This document shows positions 22,146 through 30,270 of a stretch of DNA of 64,000 nucleotides, piece after piece. The stretch is taken from positions 1-64,000 of the forward strand of contig JACQFI010000037.1 in the NCBI GenBank assembly GCA_016200135.1, written 5' to 3'. The notes under the pieces are model-generated. The model searched no databases. It saw only the letters and a program-made list of their open reading frames with translations, and was not told the origin of the DNA. This DNA is from Planctomycetota bacterium. GTDB lineage: Bacteria > Planctomycetota > SZUA-567 > H5-PLA8. Positions within the stretch are counted from its first letter, which is position 1. The number at the start of each line of letters is the position of its first letter. Made by a program: the position numbers and the translations under genes.

Positions 22146-22832
22146 ATGCCTATGCACGGACGCCCCGAACCTCGAAACGCTCCGGTTGGAACCGCGGCCG
22201 GTGCGCCGGTGCGCCGCGAAGCCGCGCCGCAAGACTTGGCGCTGCTGAAGGCGGCGCGAATCCAGAAAGCCAAGGAGAGCTCGCGCAAGACCGCCTGTGT
22301 GCTCTTCGCGATCGCAGGCGCGCTTTTCCTAGGCGTGCTTGTGCCCACGCTACTCACTGCCATGCATACCGTGGACCAGGAGCCCTTGCGCATCCCCGAG
22401 TCCCAGATTCCGTACGTTTTTCTGCGCTTCCTCGTCAAGTTCCTGGTGCTCGTGATTTGCGCCGCCGCGGGTTGCGGGCCCGGCGCGGCGCTGCTCGCGG
22501 GGTATTTCCTCTACCGGCTGATGAAACACCCCTGCACCAAGGAAGCCGACGAGCGCGCGGCCATCTCCCACGGCGCGAAGCTGGGCGCGCTCTTCGCCTT
22601 CTTCAACCTGCCCGGCTTTCTGGCATTGGTGTTTCTGTATTACGAGGACTTCGCGTTCCTGCGCGTGCTGGCGCTCTTCATGATCACGGGGGCGACATGC
22701 GGCGGATGGATCGGCTGGCAGGCCTATCGCGCCCACCATCTCGAACGCGGGTTCTTCCCGCGGTTCACGCTGGGTACGCTGGTCTCGCTGGCGTTGGGCT
22801 GGGGCGCGCTGCTGGTGTTGTTCGGGCCCTGA
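22146..22832 (+). CDS. Four-helix membrane protein A1 (flank of duplicated locus)
   Basis: About 228 residues with four hydrophobic segments (ACVLFAIAGALFLGVLVPTLL, FLVKFLVLVICAAAG, GALFAFFNLPGFLALVFLYY, TLGTLVSLALGWGALLVLF). No family is recognised. The C-terminal part MITGATCGGWIGWQAY...FPRFTLGTL aligns clearly with the protein at 29671-30270, so the two are paralogs at the two ends of the duplicated P-R-X locus. A TTG at 22122 is an alternative start; ATG at 22146 is preferred. The gene ends two bases before the stop of the convergent protease gene. Confidence 0.7.
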   Translation: MPMHGRPEPRNAPVGTAAGAPVRREAAPQDLALLKAARIQKAKESSRKTACVLFAIAGALFLGVLVPTLLTAMHTVDQEPLRIPESQIPYVFLRFLVKFLVLVICAAAGCGPGAALLAGYFLYRLMKHPCTKEADERAAISHGAKLGALFAFFNLPGFLALVFLYYEDFAFLRVLALFMITGATCGGWIGWQAYRAHHLERGFFPRFTLGTLVSLALGWGALLVLFGP

Positions 22833-22834
22833 GT

Positions 22835-24010
22835 TTACGGCAGCCGCATCTGCGCCCCGACGACAATCACGTTCGGATTGCGAATGTTGTTCGCCGCGAT
22901 CAGATCGTTGAGCGCGACCTTGAAGCGCCGGGCGATCTTCGTCAGGTTGTCGCCTTCCTGAACCACATACACGGCGGGCACGGCTTCTTTTACAGGCGCC
23001 GGCGCCTTGGGCGCTGCGAGCGTGGCGCGCTCTTCGGCGCTGGCCAGTTCCACCACCGGCGGCATATTGGCTTTTAACACGGGAGCCGCAGGCACAGGCG
23101 GCGCGGCGGGCGCTTCCGTTCTCGAAGCGACCGCTACTTTTTCTGCCGAAGGCGGAGGCGGCGCTTCGCTCGCCGCCAAGGCCGGACCTTTCACCTGAGC
23201 TTGCGGCGCAAGGACCTGCAAGGTCTTGGCGAATTCCTGCGGCGGAGGAGTCTGTTTGGTCTCATGCCGGGCCACCGTAGCTACGAGCGTCTCGCGCGTA
23301 CCGCCCTTGCGCTGCCTTTCGAGAAAGCTCCTGACCGCGGCCACCGGTACGAAGAGGCCGATTTCATGGTCCAGGTCGCCGTCCTTGGGGACGCCCGCCA
23401 CGGCCACGCCGATCACCTTGCCGCTGTCCGAGGCGACGAACGGACCGCCGCTGTCGCCGTGATCGAACGGAATGCGCACGGAGGTCCGGATGGAGCCGCT
23501 GTCGAAGCGCTTGGTCAGTTTGCCATCGAAGAGTTTCACCGGAATACCTCGGGGCGATCCGGCCAGGATCGTCTCCGCGCCAACTTCCGAATCTTCGTCT
23601 GCCAACTCCGCAAGCACCGGAACCGGATCGTTGGATTCCAGCAGACACAGGTCGAGTTCCTTATCGAAGGCGAGCACGCGGCATTTGGACCAGACGGTGC
23701 GGTCCGCACTCTCCAGTTCGATCTTGACCGTGCTGAATGGCGCGCCATTGTCGTCCAACACGTTATGCGCGGCGCTCAAGAGATAATGGGACCCTTGGTA
23801 GCCGTAGGGCGACAGGTTCACGCCAAAAGCGGTGCCGTGCCCCGTGATGACGGACCTTCCCTCGGTGCGCTCGTACTGAATGCGGACGGCCGAATTTAAT
23901 AGCTTTGCACGCTGTGTAGAATCCAGGGCTTGGAGGTTAGTGATCACCGTAGTCAAAACCAAGCCGGCTACTAAACCAGCGCCGAGTAGTCGCCTTTGCG
24001 TTCCAGGCAT
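22835..24010 (-). CDS. Exported trypsin-like serine protease with LysM domain (P1)
   Basis: 391 residues with an N-terminal signal (LLGAGLVAGLVLTTVITNL). The trypsin-like domain (about 40-235) has a complete triad: H82 in LLSAAHNV, D120 in DKELDLCLLE and S187 in DHGDSGGPF. A Pro/Ala-rich linker (about 250-345) leads to a LysM peptidoglycan-binding domain at 347-391 (YVVQEGDNLTKIARRFKV). It is probably a cell-wall-tethered periplasmic or surface protease. GGAG precedes the ATG. It is divergent from the repeat-protein gene R1, and the same divergent pair recurs at 26190-28657. Confidence 0.93.
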   Translation of the reverse strand: MPGTQRRLLGAGLVAGLVLTTVITNLQALDSTQRAKLLNSAVRIQYERTEGRSVITGHGTAFGVNLSPYGYQGSHYLLSAAHNVLDDNGAPFSTVKIELESADRTVWSKCRVLAFDKELDLCLLESNDPVPVLAELADEDSEVGAETILAGSPRGIPVKLFDGKLTKRFDSGSIRTSVRIPFDHGDSGGPFVASDSGKVIGVAVAGVPKDGDLDHEIGLFVPVAAVRSFLERQRKGGTRETLVATVARHETKQTPPPQEFAKTLQVLAPQAQVKGPALAASEAPPPPSAEKVAVASRTEAPAAPPVPAAPVLKANMPPVVELASAEERATLAAPKAPAPVKEAVPAVYVVQEGDNLTKIARRFKVALNDLIAANNIRNPNVIVVGAQMRLP

Positions 24011-24255
24011 GATTTTTCTCCATTCTCCATGAATAAGTCCTGCCTCGGTATCGACTAAAAGGGGGCAGTACGTGAAGGGATTTGAGGCTGGCAGATCTTT
24101 TGTCCATGCTTAGAAATGGGTAGATCCCAACTTTGAGGAAGTTCGCTTGAAACAAGTGTTTTGAAGCGCAGAAATCTTACGACTTGCAGTTGGAATTCAG
24201 CCTGGGCTGGGTAAAAGTGTAGGAGCCATCCAGATTCTTACCAGATCGACTCAGG

Positions 24256-24273
24256 CACTCGGGAAAACGAGTG
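24256..24273 (+). promoter_or_regulatory. Hairpin before the R1 ribosome site
   Basis: CACTCG (24256-24261) and CGAGTG (24268-24273) are perfect complements around a GGAAAA loop, 14 bases upstream of the AAGGAGG of R1. It could influence translation initiation or leader stability. The R2 copy lacks an obvious equivalent. Confidence 0.4.
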
Positions 24274-24301
24274 TCCTCGGCTAAAAAGGAGGAGTGACGT
24301 C

Positions 24302-25270
24302 ATGATGAGCAAAAAATTAGCAGGTATTCTTGCGCTTGCGGCCCTGGTTGCCGGTTTGAACCTCGCCGTCCGCGCCGCGGACACTCCGACGGAAGTTCCC
24401 TTTGAAGAGGGCAAAGAACCGCCGCCCTGCAAGCCGGGCGAAGGCTGGTGCCTGGTGACGGTCCCCGCGATCTATAAGACGGTGCCGAAGCAGCAGCAGA
24501 CGCAGGCCGCCACTTTCTACATGGAAGCGGTGCCCGCGAAGTTCGAGACCAAGCCGGAAGTCGTCGCGCTGGCTCCCGAAAAGAAAGTCTCCACGGTCGT
24601 GCCGGCCAAGTTCAAGACCGAGGCCGTCAAGGTCATGGTTCACCCGGAATACAAGGTGATCGAGGTCGTCCCGGCGCAGTTCGAATGGGCCGAAGAGAAG
24701 GTCGAAGCTCGCGCGGCGTACGACACGCTGACGGTGAGCGACGCGACCTACAAGATCGTTCCCGAGCAGATCCAGGTGGCCCCGGCGACCTCCTATTGGA
24801 AGAAGGAAGAGGGCAAGGACTGCTACTGCATGTGCGAGAAACCCGCGAAGTTCGTCACCGTCAACAAGGAAATGCTCGATAAGGACGCCGTTCAGAACAA
24901 GGCCTCGGTTCCGGCCGTGTTCAAGACAGTCAAGGTCCAGAAGCTAGTGAAGCCGGCGAGCGTGGTCGAGAAGACGATTCCGGCCGAGTACATCACGGTG
25001 GACAAGGAAGTCGTCGACGCCCCCGCATCCGTGACCGCCGCGACCGTTCCCGCCAAGAGCGAGACGATCAACAAGGAAATTGAAGTCGCCAAGGCGACGA
25101 CCCGCAAGATCGAGATTCCCGCGAAGTTCGAGACGGTCAACGAGACGGTGCTCGACAAGCCCGCGCACCTCGTCTGGCGCAAGAACACCTGCAACTGCGG
25201 CTCCATCGTGGCCAAGTACAAGGAAGTGCCCGGCACCGATGAGGAAAGCCTCCTGAAGTTCTCGAAGTAA
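24302..25270 (+). CDS. Exported VPA-[KE]-[FY]-x-T repeat protein (R1)
   Basis: 322 residues with a signal peptide ending near AVRAADTP. The body contains about ten degenerate repeats of roughly 20-25 residues of the form (V/I)PA(K/E)(F/Y)xTVxKxV, for example TVVPAKFKTEAV, TIPAEYITVDKEV and IEIPAKFETVNETV. A central DCYCMCEKPAK and a C-terminal TCNCGS carry most of the cysteines. Similar PA-Y-x-TV repeats occur in OmpA-like and peptidoglycan-associated envelope proteins (from memory). No catalytic motif is seen; it looks structural. AAGGAGG lies nine bases before the ATG. The paralog R2 is at 27695-28657. Confidence 0.85.
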   Translation: MMSKKLAGILALAALVAGLNLAVRAADTPTEVPFEEGKEPPPCKPGEGWCLVTVPAIYKTVPKQQQTQAATFYMEAVPAKFETKPEVVALAPEKKVSTVVPAKFKTEAVKVMVHPEYKVIEVVPAQFEWAEEKVEARAAYDTLTVSDATYKIVPEQIQVAPATSYWKKEEGKDCYCMCEKPAKFVTVNKEMLDKDAVQNKASVPAVFKTVKVQKLVKPASVVEKTIPAEYITVDKEVVDAPASVTAATVPAKSETINKEIEVAKATTRKIEIPAKFETVNETVLDKPAHLVWRKNTCNCGSIVAKYKEVPGTDEESLLKFSK

Positions 25271-25281
25271 CTTGGCCGTTC

Positions 25282-25318
25282 GGAGGGCCTGAACCCTGCG
25301 TTCAGGCCCTCCTTGTTT
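25282..25318 (+). terminator. Rho-independent terminator between R1 and X1
   Basis: A perfect 13-bp stem (25282-25294 with 25300-25312), a five-base loop and TTGTTT form a strong intrinsic terminator 12 bases after the R1 stop. X1 starts 38 bases later, so either X1 has its own promoter or readthrough sets the R1:X1 ratio. Confidence 0.85.
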
Positions 25319-25355
25319 CTGGACTTCGCCCGACTAAGCCCCAAGGGAGATTACC

Positions 25356-26189
25356 ATGCGTTGGAATAAGCCGTTTATGTTCTGTACGCTCCTCCTGGTC
25401 CTGGTGTCCGCGCGTTGGGCGGCCGGCGAGACCGCCGCCGCAAAGCCCCCCGCGGAAGCCGCGCAGCGGATTGTCGAGACCTATAAGGACGTGCCCAAGG
25501 GCGTGGTGCTGGAAGGAAGCGCTTCCGGGATCGAGGCGCTCGAGACGCTTACCTACGACAAGGAAAAGAACACCTTCGTACTCAACGGCAAGGCGACCTA
25601 TGCGAATCCGGTGAGCCGCAAGGATTTCGCGCGCATCTTCAAAGCCGTCCGCAAGGACGACCGCTTGGGCGTGACGCTGGTCAATGGCGAGCTGCGGACC
25701 TACGGCGACATCGGCGGCGACTCGCAGATCGCTAAGGATCTCTCCGAGACCGACCGGTTCCTCGGCGGCGTGATCTACGGCATCGACCGTCTGCTCGGCG
25801 ACGTCAAACTGCCCGGCAACTACAAGCCCCAGAAGGCCGAAAACCGCTCGGTGGCCGTCGTGGCGTTTTCCAGCTTTACGGAATTTACGTTCGAGAAGAA
25901 GGACCTTGTCTATTCGCGCGCCGGCTGCGGCCTCAGCATCATGCTCATTCCGCTCGCCGACAAGAAAACCTCTTCGGGCGGCCACTTGCCCGACGAAGAC
26001 AAGATGAAGACCTACGAGATGGAAAAAGCCGACAAGGCGAACATCGACCACCTGAAGAGTTACCAGGCCGATTATTTCAAGATGCCGCAATTCGAGAAGA
26101 CCGTGGCGTGGGGCGAGGCCGCCGCTTTTGCACGCTTCGTGCGGGATTCGAAGATCGACGCCGAGGAGTTTCTCAAGAGCATCAAGTAA
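25356..26189 (+). CDS. Exported protein of unknown family (X1)
   Basis: 277 residues with a signal peptide (MFCTLLLVLVSARWAAG). No known domain is recognised. The conserved core with its paralog X2 includes TYKDVPKGVVLEGSASG, NGKATYANPVSRKDF, KAVRKDDRLGVTLVNGELR, LPGNYKPQKAENR and KADKANIDHLKS; by eye about three quarters of residues are identical. The composition suggests a soluble alpha/beta periplasmic protein. AAGGGAGA precedes the ATG. Its TAA abuts the stop codon of the convergent protease gene P2 with no base between them. Confidence 0.82.
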   Translation: MRWNKPFMFCTLLLVLVSARWAAGETAAAKPPAEAAQRIVETYKDVPKGVVLEGSASGIEALETLTYDKEKNTFVLNGKATYANPVSRKDFARIFKAVRKDDRLGVTLVNGELRTYGDIGGDSQIAKDLSETDRFLGGVIYGIDRLLGDVKLPGNYKPQKAENRSVAVVAFSSFTEFTFEKKDLVYSRAGCGLSIMLIPLADKKTSSGGHLPDEDKMKTYEMEKADKANIDHLKSYQADYFKMPQFEKTVAWGEAAAFARFVRDSKIDAEEFLKSIK

Positions 26190-27113
26190 TCAGCGCTTAT
26201 GGTCCTGGCCGTCCTCGGTCCCTGAAGTCGAAGGCGAATCCGCCTTCGGCTTAGGGGCCGCGGGTTTCTCCTCACCCGCTTTCCCCGCCGGCTCGCTTGA
26301 TTTTGTCATGGCGGCTGGAACAGCCGGCACGGGGTTCTTCTCGATGCGGTCGGTACGCAGAGGCGTTGCCGGTTGCGCGGGCCGCGCATCGGTGGCGCGG
26401 TGCTGATCGAGGAAACTGCGCACGCCGGCGACGGGCACGAATAGCCCCAGATTATGGTCTAAATCGCTGCCCTTCGCGACCCCTGCCACCGCCACGCCGA
26501 TCACCTTACCGCTTTGCGCAGAAAAGAACGGCCCGCCGCTGTCGCCGTGATCAAAGGTGATGCGCGCCGAGGACCGAACCGAGCCGCTATCGAAGCGTTT
26601 CAGCAGCGTGCCATCATAGAGTTTCACCGGAATGCCTCGGGGCGAACCGGCCAACACCACTTCCGTTCCCGGGTCCGCATCGGCCTCCGCAAGTGGTGCG
26701 ATCTCAGGTATAGCTTCTGTAGACTCGATTAGGCAGAGGTCCAGATCCGTATCGAACGCCACAACCTTGCACTTCGACCAGACGCTTCGGGCATTCTCTT
26801 CCAGTTCGATCGTCAACGCCTCGTAGGGCTGTCCATTCTTATCGAGCACATTATGCGCGGCGCTCAGGAGGTATTTGGCACCCTCGTAGCCGTACCGGCT
26901 CAAATCCACGCCAAAGGCCGTCCCGTGACCGGTAATCACCGCTGTTCCTTGTGCGATTTCGTAACGAATTCGGACGGCGGCTTTCAAGAACTTTGGCCGC
27001 TGTGCTCCGCCCTCTTCCGCAAGCGACCGTCCGGAAAACTGCAAGAATAAGAATGCGCCCGCGGCAAGCACGGTGTTACGGAATCCAAATGGACGGGGCA
27101 GAACATTCAGCAT
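26190..27113 (-). CDS. Exported trypsin-like serine protease (P2)
   Basis: 307 residues. The frame is open further upstream, but ATG at 27113 follows GAGGAG and begins the signal peptide (RNTVLAAGAFLFLQFSGRSLA). The protease domain is clearly paralogous to P1 with the triad H87 (LLSAAHNV), D125 (DTDLDLCLIE) and S192 (DHGDSGGPF). The C-terminus is a Pro/Ala/Lys-rich tail without a LysM domain, so this copy has lost, or never gained, the peptidoglycan anchor. It is divergent from R2 across a 581-base AT-richer gap. Confidence 0.92.
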   Translation of the reverse strand: MLNVLPRPFGFRNTVLAAGAFLFLQFSGRSLAEEGGAQRPKFLKAAVRIRYEIAQGTAVITGHGTAFGVDLSRYGYEGAKYLLSAAHNVLDKNGQPYEALTIELEENARSVWSKCKVVAFDTDLDLCLIESTEAIPEIAPLAEADADPGTEVVLAGSPRGIPVKLYDGTLLKRFDSGSVRSSARITFDHGDSGGPFFSAQSGKVIGVAVAGVAKGSDLDHNLGLFVPVAGVRSFLDQHRATDARPAQPATPLRTDRIEKNPVPAVPAAMTKSSEPAGKAGEEKPAAPKPKADSPSTSGTEDGQDHKR

Positions 27114-27694
27114 GCGTGTCTCCTCAGGTGCGCCTCGCGCTGTTTTCCAAACTCCAAACCGGTTCCCATTTGCTGGAAATGCTTCATGTGAAAGAAAACT
27201 TGCTGCAGCGCCGCTATCGGCGGCGAAAAATTCCAATCAATAAAATGACTGGGTGCGGTGTTTGCTCCAGGTTCATGCACTTTTGGAGGTACGTCGATGG
27301 AGAAAGTGGAATCCCGCAGTGTAAGACCCAGCGGACAGCCATGTAAGAGAAAGGATTATAGGGATGCGAGTGGAGACTTCAATTCTTATTCCGCTCGAAT
27401 TTACTGCACCAATGCGAATCAGGCGTGAATTCCACCCGTCTGGTGAGGAAGAAAGGTCTATTTTATGACAAGAAGTCCAATGCAATTGTTTTTCGTCAGA
27501 AGACTTAGGTGAAGAGGTAAGATCGCCCATTTCGCATCAAAAGGCCCACCCCTTATAATTCTCGGGATGGGAGATTTTATATAAATAGGCCGCAAACTTG
27601 ACGGGGAATGAGGCCGTGCCTCCTTCCAAATTCTTCAACGCTGGGTTGTCATGGGCGCAGTCGAGTGATCGTATCGAAAGAAAGGAGGTAGAAC
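27114..27694. other. Divergent regulatory region between P2 and R2
   Basis: 581 bases, clearly lower in GC than the neighbours. Short frames here lack coding character. A CGCCGC/GCGGCG hairpin lies at 27209-27225 and a plus-strand promoter at 27531-27559. The remaining sequence shows no recognised motif. Confidence 0.6.
27531..27559 (+). promoter_or_regulatory. Candidate sigma-70 promoter for R2
   Basis: TTCGCA (27531-27536, four of six matches) and a perfect TATAAT (27554-27559) are separated by 17 bases. The R2 start is 136 bases downstream, giving a long leader of roughly 125-130 bases. Confidence 0.55.
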
Positions 27695-28657
27695 ATGGCC
27701 GCTAAGCATCTGAGTTTGGGCTGTATGCTGCTATCGCTCCTGGCAGCGATTAGCGTCATGGCCGTCGACACACCGGACGAAGTTCCTTTTGATGAGGGCA
27801 AAGGCCCCCCTCCCGCCAATGTCGGCGAGGGATGGTGCCTCATAACGATCCCGGCCTGCTACAAGACCGTCACCAGGCAGCAGGAAGTCCAGGCCGCGAC
27901 GCACTTCCTCGAAACGGTTCCGGCGAAGTACGAGACCCGGACCGAACAGGTACTGGTCGCGCCCGAGAAGACCTGCAGTACGGTCGTGCCGGCTTGCTAC
28001 AAGACTGAGATGGTGACCATGATGGTCAAGCCGGAGCACAAAGTCCTGGAGATCGTCCCCGCCCTGTTTGAATGGGCAGAGCAGCAAGTCGAGGTGAAGG
28101 CCGCATGCGAAACCGTCTCGACATGCGACGCTATGTATAAGACCGTGACCGAACAGATCATGGTCTCGCCCGCAAGCACCTACTGGAAGAGAGAAGGTCC
28201 GGGCGAATGCTACTGTTTGTGCGAGAAACCCGCGAAGTATGTGACGGTCTGCAAGGAAGTGCTGGACCGGGAAGCCACGCAGAACAAGGTCCCGGTTCCC
28301 TGTGTCATGAAAACCGTCCGGGTTCAGCGGCTGGTGAAGGCGGCCAGCGTCGTTGAGAGAGTTGTGCCCGCTGAATTCGTTTCGGTCGAAAAGCAGGTGG
28401 TGGATGTTCCGGCCAAGGTCGTCGCGCGCACGGTGCCTGCGCGCTTCGAGACGGTCACCAAGGAAGTGGAAGTGGCGGCGGCCGCGACGCGCAGGATCGA
28501 GATCCCGGCGAAGTTCGAAACGATCACCGAGACGGTGCTCGATCAGCCGGCGCATCTTGTGTGGAGAAAACACAAGTGTGACTACGCCACCATTGTGGCG
28601 AAGTACAGGGAAGTGCCCGGTACCGATGAAGCAAGTCTCTTGAAGTATGTGAAATAG
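27695..28657 (+). CDS. Exported cysteine-rich VPA repeat protein (R2)
   Basis: 320 residues, paralogous to R1 along the full length with the same signal peptide, repeats and C-terminus (PAHLVWRK, IVAKYREVPGTDE). It differs in having many additional cysteines at repeat positions where R1 has other residues: IPACYKTV, EKTCSTVVPACYKT, KAACETVSTCDAMYK, VTVCKEV and VPVPCVMKT. The central ECYCLCEKP is kept. This pattern suggests inter- or intra-molecular disulfides and a cross-linked structural protein. AAAGGAGG precedes the ATG. Confidence 0.85.
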   Translation: MAAKHLSLGCMLLSLLAAISVMAVDTPDEVPFDEGKGPPPANVGEGWCLITIPACYKTVTRQQEVQAATHFLETVPAKYETRTEQVLVAPEKTCSTVVPACYKTEMVTMMVKPEHKVLEIVPALFEWAEQQVEVKAACETVSTCDAMYKTVTEQIMVSPASTYWKREGPGECYCLCEKPAKYVTVCKEVLDREATQNKVPVPCVMKTVRVQRLVKAASVVERVVPAEFVSVEKQVVDVPAKVVARTVPARFETVTKEVEVAAAATRRIEIPAKFETITETVLDQPAHLVWRKHKCDYATIVAKYREVPGTDEASLLKYVK

Positions 28658-28672
28658 TATGGCCCTTTGAGA

Positions 28673-28698
28673 TGGCCCGGGCGCCAACGCCCGGGCCA
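28673..28698 (+). terminator. Hairpin between R2 and X2
   Basis: A perfect 11-bp stem (28673-28683 with 28688-28698) around a CCAA loop lies 15 bases after the R2 stop. No clear T-tract follows, so it may act as an RNA stabiliser or a weak terminator. It occupies the same place as the R1-X1 terminator, although the sequences differ. Confidence 0.6.
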
Positions 28699-28747
28699 CT
28701 CTAGGTTCGGTCAACCCGCACTTTCAGCCTTCTAATGGAGAGCCGCC

Positions 28748-29587
28748 ATGCGCTGCAAAGACGTCTTCAAACTCGTTCCCCTCTTATTCGCAATTCTGGT
28801 CTTCAAGCTTGCGGCGGATGAAGCGGCCACAGGCAAGCCGAAACCTGAGACCTCCGCGCGCGCTATCGTGGATACCTATAAAGATGTTCCCAAAGGCGTT
28901 GTGCTTGAAGGCAGCGCTTCCGGTTTCGAAGCTCTGCAGAGTCTTGCCTACGACAAAGACAAGAACGCATTCCTGATCAACGGCAAAGCGACCTACGCCA
29001 ATCCGGTCAGCCGTAAAGATTTCTCCCGAGTCTTAAAGGCGGTGCGCAAGGACGATCGGCTGGGCGTAACGCTGGTCAACGGTGAACTGCGGACCTACGG
29101 CGACTTGAGTACCGAGGCGCAGATGGCGAAAGAGCTCTCAGAAACCGACCGCTTTCTGGGCGGCATCATCTACGGTATCGACCGGCTGCTCGGCGACCAG
29201 AAACTGCCCGGCAATTATAAACCTCAAAAGGCCGAGAACCGCACGGTGGCCGTCGTGGCGTTTACCAGCTTCACCGATTACGCTTTCGAGAAGAAGGGCA
29301 ACGAATACAAGCGGGCCGGCCTCAATCTCAGCGTCATGCTCATCCCGCTCTCCGACAAGAAGACGGCAAGCGGCGGCCATCTGCCCGACGAGCCCAAACT
29401 GAAGACCTATCAGATGGAAAAGGCCGACAAGGCAAATATCGACCACCTGAAAAGCCACCAGGACGAATACATCCGGATGCTGGAACTGAATAAGACCGTG
29501 GCCTGGGGCGAGGCCGCCGCCTTTGCCCGCTTCGTGCGGGATTCCGCAAAGATCGATTCCGAAGAGTTCCTCAAGCAGCTCAAATAG
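28748..29587 (+). CDS. Exported protein of unknown family (X2)
   Basis: 279 residues, a close paralog of X1 with signal peptide (LVPLLFAILVFKLAADE) and the same conserved blocks (TYKDVPKGVVLEGSASG, VRKDDRLGVTLVNGELRTYG, KTVAWGEAAAFARFVRDS). No known domain. It differs from X1 mostly in the last third, where X1 has GCGLSIMLIP and X2 has GLNLSVMLIP. GGAG precedes the ATG, and a strong terminator follows the gene. Confidence 0.82.
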   Translation: MRCKDVFKLVPLLFAILVFKLAADEAATGKPKPETSARAIVDTYKDVPKGVVLEGSASGFEALQSLAYDKDKNAFLINGKATYANPVSRKDFSRVLKAVRKDDRLGVTLVNGELRTYGDLSTEAQMAKELSETDRFLGGIIYGIDRLLGDQKLPGNYKPQKAENRTVAVVAFTSFTDYAFEKKGNEYKRAGLNLSVMLIPLSDKKTASGGHLPDEPKLKTYQMEKADKANIDHLKSHQDEYIRMLELNKTVAWGEAAAFARFVRDSAKIDSEEFLKQLK

Positions 29588-29610
29588 CAGCGGTCAGGCC
29601 AACTGCAAGC

Positions 29611-29641
29611 AAGCGGGGCGCGCATGCGCCCCGCTTTTATT
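29611..29641 (+). terminator. Rho-independent terminator after X2
   Basis: An 11-bp stem (AAGCGGGGCGC at 29611-29621 pairing with 29626-29636) has a four-base loop and is followed by TTATT. It ends the R2-X2 transcript. Confidence 0.85.
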
Positions 29642-29670
29642 GACGCGAATATCCCCTATCATAGCTTGCC

Positions 29671-30270
29671 ATGGTATTTCCGGTAGCGCCTCGCAATAGA
29701 AATAGTCTGCCACGCGGCTTCGATGGCCGCATGAATTACGCGCTTTTCGGTTCGGCATTCATCGGAGTCCTACTCCCCTGCCTGTTAACTTGGATTCACT
29801 GCAGCGGGACTCCTATGAACATGCTTGATTACGGTCTTATCGATAGGGAAAAGCAATGGCTGGTCGAGGACTTGATACAACTATGCCTAATGGCCGGAGT
29901 TTTCTGCGGTCCGGGCATTTTAATGCTGTCCTATGGAATTATGGTATCTCGCAGGGACCGCTTTAAGCATGCAATAGAACTCGACCTGAAGGGGAACCTA
30001 TTTACCTCCGCCATGCAGGGGGCTCTTTTATCATTTATCAATTTACCTGCCTATAGTTCTTTGACCTTCTTCAAGAACGATCCCAACTCCCCCTTCCTTA
30101 TCTGCGCGTTATTCGGAATTACCGGTTTCACCTGCGGTCTTTGGATCGGCTGGCAGGCTTGGAAAGAAGTGTATCCATCGGAAGGCCTAATTCCTCGTTT
30201 CGGCCTGCGCACACTTCTTCTGTTCGTAATGGCGTGGGGCATCGTATTGGCCGTGTTCATGCCGCGCTAA
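29671..30270 (+). CDS. Four-helix membrane protein A2 (flank of duplicated locus)
   Basis: 199 residues with four hydrophobic segments. The segments GITGFTCGLWIGWQAW and IPRFGLRTLLLFVMAWGIVL match A1 at 22146-22832, so the two are paralogs at opposite ends of the P-R-X duplication. Codon use is visibly more AT-rich than the surrounding genes (many TTA, AAT and CTA codons). That would fit relaxed constraint or a different origin. The first ATG lacks a good ribosome site; the ATG at 29731 is an alternative. No function can be assigned. Confidence 0.7.
   Translation: MVFPVAPRNRNSLPRGFDGRMNYALFGSAFIGVLLPCLLTWIHCSGTPMNMLDYGLIDREKQWLVEDLIQLCLMAGVFCGPGILMLSYGIMVSRRDRFKHAIELDLKGNLFTSAMQGALLSFINLPAYSSLTFFKNDPNSPFLICALFGITGFTCGLWIGWQAWKEVYPSEGLIPRFGLRTLLLFVMAWGIVLAVFMPR

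Follow-up and report, generated by a model that had tools for sequence, protein, structure and literature searches.

The window, a stretch of 64,000 nucleotides from a Planctomycetota genome (G000, assembled in 140 contigs), carries a duplicated set of three genes coding for a protease (P), a repeat protein (R) and a third protein (X). In the first-pass annotation, P(-), R(+) and X(+) were described as occurring twice in tandem in the same order and orientation (22835-26189 and 26190-29587), with the membrane paralogs A1 and A2 on either side; this layout was borne out, and all eight (8/8) of the open reading frames were found at or near the places assigned to them. A1 (22146..22832, + strand) codes for a membrane protein of no named family, which flanks the module and lies outside its conserved core. 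The first cassette consists of P1 (22835..24010, - strand), a predicted exported trypsin-like serine protease (Trypsin_2) with a C-terminal LysM domain, R1 (24302..25270, + strand), a predicted exported protein of 23-residue beta repeats with 7 Cys, and X1 (25356..26189, + strand), a predicted exported protein of 277 aa that by profile comparison is remotely related to DUF1598. A hairpin of 13 base pairs (25282..25312, + strand) lies between R1 and X1. The second cassette consists of P2 (26190..27113, - strand), a protease of the same kind without LysM, R2 (27695..28657, + strand; 13 Cys), a GC-rich hairpin of 14 base pairs (28669..28701, + strand; z -3.7, with 0 of 200 shuffles equally stable) and X2 (28748..29587, + strand), followed by A2 (29671..30270, + strand), a membrane protein paralogous to A1, which adjoins mqnC here and likewise in the sister genome G001, the other sequenced member of the genus. 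The signal peptides that had been noted in all P, R and X proteins were seen again as signal-like N termini, called by eye and with a hydropathy scan.

In BLASTP comparisons, P1 and P2 were 59% identical over 254 aa (E 9e-103), R1 and R2 62% over 322 aa, X1 and X2 72% over 279 aa, and A1 and A2 36% over 177 aa (E 2e-30). A DNA repeat search found long direct repeats at a spacing of ∼3.1-3.4 kb, with at most 78% identity over 300 nt, so that the tandem copy is real, and the presence of LysM in P1 and not in P2 shows that the two cassettes differ in their parts. In the tree of R proteins, R1 pairs with the R of G001 (support 91/88) and R2 falls outside this pair; hence, the duplication in tandem is probably older than the divergence of G000 and G001, the only members of the genus that have been sequenced. 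The flanks of the module are ordinary (genes for phosphofructokinase, mqnC, a phosphomannomutase and a TonB receptor). G001 has the same neighbours and a single P-R-X rather than two, preceded by three A genes and followed by one, and in G004 mqnC lies ∼5 kb from R-X.

The conserved core of the module is R-X: at 10 loci in nine genomes of three families (both window copies, G001, G003, G004, G006, G013, G018, G025, and G027), the gene for R immediately precedes that for X in the same orientation. G009, G012, and G014 have both genes, at separate places. X was found in 12 of the 60 genomes searched as relatives and in 12 of 392 genomes of the phylum (counting G000 itself), and all of these belong to the class of the window. 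R is spread more widely (23/60 relatives and 38/392 of the phylum), and its weaker matches extend to further families of the phylum, one of which holds most of them; it is present in every genome that has X, and many genomes have R without X. A strong hairpin was found in the R-X gap at nine of the 10 loci, the exception being G027, where the gap is shorter than 50 nt, and all nine gaps fold better than their dinucleotide shuffles (z -2.2 to -5.1). The stems occupy a common place in the gap and are unrelated in sequence. A partial terminator or a stabiliser of the 3' end would be expected to look like this, and either would give more R than X.

The AlphaFold model of X is confident (mean pLDDT 90 for X2; pTM 0.83), and it had no significant match in the PDB or in the viral structure library. 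None of the Pfam families gave a match of meaningful E to X or to 14 aligned homologs, and DUF1598 (PF07643) stayed below its cut-off; by eye, however, X is collinear with the DUF1598 core. When the long insert of most DUF1598 proteins was kept, the profile comparison was borderline (P 0.065; in another run P 0.038, with 2/200 shuffles reaching the score). Manual removal of the insert led to a strong score, which is biased, and the comparison was therefore redone with natural short-loop DUF1598 proteins, to which hhalign aligned X with a probability of 72%, a P of 3.4e-5 and a score of 39.4; because DUF1598 was picked by eye, this P value is valid for one comparison only. In 300 block shuffles the maximum score was 32.8, so that 0/300 reached the observed one, and the N and C halves of X align to DUF1598 separately and in order (0/200 and 4/200 shuffles reaching the score). 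On these profile comparisons, X is a remote relative of DUF1598. It differs from the DUF1598 proteins of Planctomycetota in being shorter, in missing the 50-residue insert that most of them have, in having no Pfam match of its own and in sitting beside R. DUF1598 was not found in the searched genomes of the window's class, and the literature searched held no mention of it and no function for it. Two X homologs that do not adjoin R (L024:12775-14004 and L027:334-1575) carry an extra C-terminal extension of ∼130 residues. In other families of Planctomycetota, the DUF1598 core also occurs in long proteins of ∼1000 aa or more together with apparent TPR repeats (L115, L117, L128-L131, and L150).

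R has a period of 23 residues, with two arrays of repeats around a Cys-containing linker. Its model is all-beta and of low confidence (pLDDT 71, pTM 0.27); the beta nature of the repeats is thus a low-confidence prediction, and a PDB fold search with this model, which is too weak to interpret, gave no match. Searches of Pfam, NCBIfam, PHROGs and PADLOC gave no family that covers R, X or A. We compared R with the YTV-domain (PF07639) proteins of Planctomycetia, which are cysteine-rich and have been reported in planctomycete cell walls, from Planctomycetales only (PMC8567305); their class restriction is also described in PMC10632474. Both kinds of protein have a signal-like N terminus, are rich in Val/Thr/Pro/Lys, and carry two repeat arrays with a Cys-containing linker between them, and a P-x-[YW]-E-T-[KR]-T-like pattern recurs in both when they are inspected by eye. 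The repeat period, however, is 16 residues in YTV proteins and 23 in R, and Cys makes up 7-13% of YTV proteins and 1-4% of R (0.9-4.1% among 15 R proteins), a G005 variant with 9.9% excepted. No match of the YTV profile to the 15 R proteins was found at E up to 10, the R profile retrieved no YTV protein, and R does not show a 16-residue repeat with high Cys. We also found no YTV matches in G000, G001, G004, and G012, and 10-16 in each of four other Planctomycetota genomes. Membership of R among the YTV proteins was therefore rejected, as all sequence tests of it failed and the hhalign match spans 20 columns only. R may nevertheless work like a YTV protein without being classed as one. The G005 variant (L180:7719-9350) is a protein of 543 aa with many CCxPE repeats and a composition near that of YTV proteins, which indicates that R is able to turn Cys-rich.

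P1 and P2 match Trypsin_2 (PF13365) above its cut-off (E 1e-10 and 1e-11), and the complete catalytic triads that had been claimed for both proteases are present (LLSAAHNV for His, DLDLCL for Asp, and DHGDSGGP for Ser). Translation of P2 most likely begins at ATG 27113, which was preferred over TTG 27236 and at which the signal-like sequence begins (MLNVLPRPFGFRNTVLAAGAFLFLQFSGRSLAEE). The C-terminal LysM of P1 (E 1.4e-12) was also found in P of G001, G003, and G004, and no LysM was found in P2 or in the second-locus P paralogs of G004 and G006. In the P proteins adjacent to R-X in G004 (L022:8055-9401) and G006 (L023:8200-9100), GCSGGP replaces GDSGGP with the Ser retained, and the assembled reading frame of the latter has a stop before the expected LysM region.

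Strong P homologs (above ∼75 bits) are confined to the window's family, and each genome with such a homolog also has R. The five members of the family with X, namely G000 (twice), G001, G003, G004, and G006, all have P next to R and X. Within the genus (twice in the window and in G001), P and R are divergently oriented, whereas P follows X in the same orientation in G003, G004, and G006. In addition, G004 and G006 each have a second, long-diverged P placed tail-to-tail with a second R, and X is absent there. P thus tracks R more closely than it tracks X. Elsewhere in the family, G005 lacks X, and its P and R fall on separate contigs, both short, with P not beside R on the examined stretch; G002 has A, lacks X and P, and gave no more than a weak match resembling R. 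In G004 (L178:6186-6767) and G006 (L179:6052-6630), the place of X between the second R and P is taken by a gene for a coiled-coil-like lipoprotein of 192-193 aa, which had coiled-coil-type matches below cut-off only; it is possible that this lipoprotein substitutes for X at these loci.

The earlier proposal of an envelope module made of P, R, X, and A thus stands in part. The predicted export of its proteins holds, as does the tie of P to R (five genomes, two arrangements, and the second P-R pairs), but the proposal is not supported as one indivisible P-R-X-A set, for R-X occurs without P in four genomes, R without X in many, and A is unlinked. The co-occurrence check that had been suggested for the homologs likewise gave a divided answer: R and X are found without P, and a strong P homolog is always accompanied by R. 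These distributions bear on the view that P acts on X, or that X restrains P as an inhibitor, chaperone or delivery factor, R being a separate co-expressed envelope protein. Such a view would account for the placement of X between the other two genes in G003, G004, and G006, and would suit a predicted fold of X that is well formed and unmatched among solved structures; yet the four genomes with R-X and no such P belong to other families, and the second loci of G004 and G006 have P-R without X, which together make X and P separable, and we regard this view as improbable.

A further explanation is that P serves in general quality control of the envelope, as a protease of the HtrA/MarP kind, and owes its place by R to inherited synteny, with no specific link to a substrate. 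Like these proteases, P is a predicted exported Trypsin_2 protein with a complete triad; its only relatives by sequence in the PDB are HtrA1 entries (E 1e-4), and MarP is its best NCBIfam serine-protease profile, far below the cut-off. However, P1 and P2 scored 26 and 20 bits against the HtrA cut-off of 470 (that of MarP is 250), neither gave a PDZ match, and P1 has a C-terminal LysM. Moreover, from one genus to another P has changed its strand and its position with respect to R-X while remaining next to it, and paralogous P and R pairs occur twice over (in the window and, at their second loci, in G004 and G006). Plain inherited order predicts neither this lasting adjacency nor the repeated P-R pairs, and we consider this explanation unlikely, if less so than the preceding one. 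An anti-phage role or a phage origin of the module was also considered and rejected: R, X, and A had no PADLOC or PHROGs match, and P had protease-domain matches only, to the RT-Protease, LmuA and Avs1b models. R was absent from the phage and plasmid records searched, and X from the plasmid records.

We tentatively prefer the explanation, which we judge to fall somewhat short of an even chance, that R is an abundant repeat protein of the envelope, that its partner X is exported and present in lower amounts, and that P is a protease responsible for maturing or policing R, presumably by cleavage. R would be exported to the cell envelope and built of 23-residue beta repeats, and X would be co-transcribed with it, exported and made in smaller amounts, the hairpin stopping or protecting most transcripts after R. 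P would be a serine protease that is exported, was ancestrally anchored to peptidoglycan through LysM and came to be recruited in the window's family to mature, trim or degrade R. The TonB receptor gene near the module in the window would suit an envelope of two membranes. Against this preferred explanation are the occurrence of R and R-X without P elsewhere in the class, which makes P dispensable for the function of R-X, the missing LysM in P2 and in the second-locus P, the separation of P from R in G005 and the weak model of R. A related alternative, differing mainly in the role of R, is that R is a surface protein for binding or adhesion rather than a structural one, with X as a partner in its secretion or assembly and P releasing it from the cell. 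The signal-like N terminus, the repeats and the Cys-rich G005 variant are compatible with such a protein, and a LysM-held protease would be well placed to release it; on the other side, no binding domain was recognised in R and the release is purely putative, and we give this alternative a low probability, about that of an action of P on X.

In a wider reading, this class would have a proteinaceous envelope layer or fibre of its own that consists of R, is put together with the DUF1598-like X and, in one family, undergoes maturation by a dedicated protease tethered to peptidoglycan; taken as a whole, this is a rather doubtful proposal, rated well below the preferred explanation and marginally above the general-protease one. 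If true, the R layer would be the equivalent of the YTV wall for those lineages that have no YTV proteins. Planctomycete envelopes are unusual, and R, a conserved, predicted exported repeat protein with X as its fixed partner, is a concrete candidate for their builder or decorator where YTV proteins went undetected. X, and through it DUF1598, gains a testable context, with R as its partner, the hairpin as a possible control of dosage and P as the likely processing enzyme of one family. The P-R-X module appears class-restricted and has been uncharacterised so far.

The membrane protein A, for which ∼4 hydrophobic segments were found in both A1 and A2 with a hydropathy scan, had been proposed as the anchor or transporter of the module. 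This role did not hold up: A lies ∼170-350 kb from R-X in G004 and G006, was not found in G003, and occurs in G002, where P and X are missing and R is a weak match at most. Being unlinked or absent outside the genus, it was rejected as a member of the module. In G001, three tandem A genes adjoin P (L020:5536-7557), and A is seemingly a small, locally expanding family of membrane proteins.
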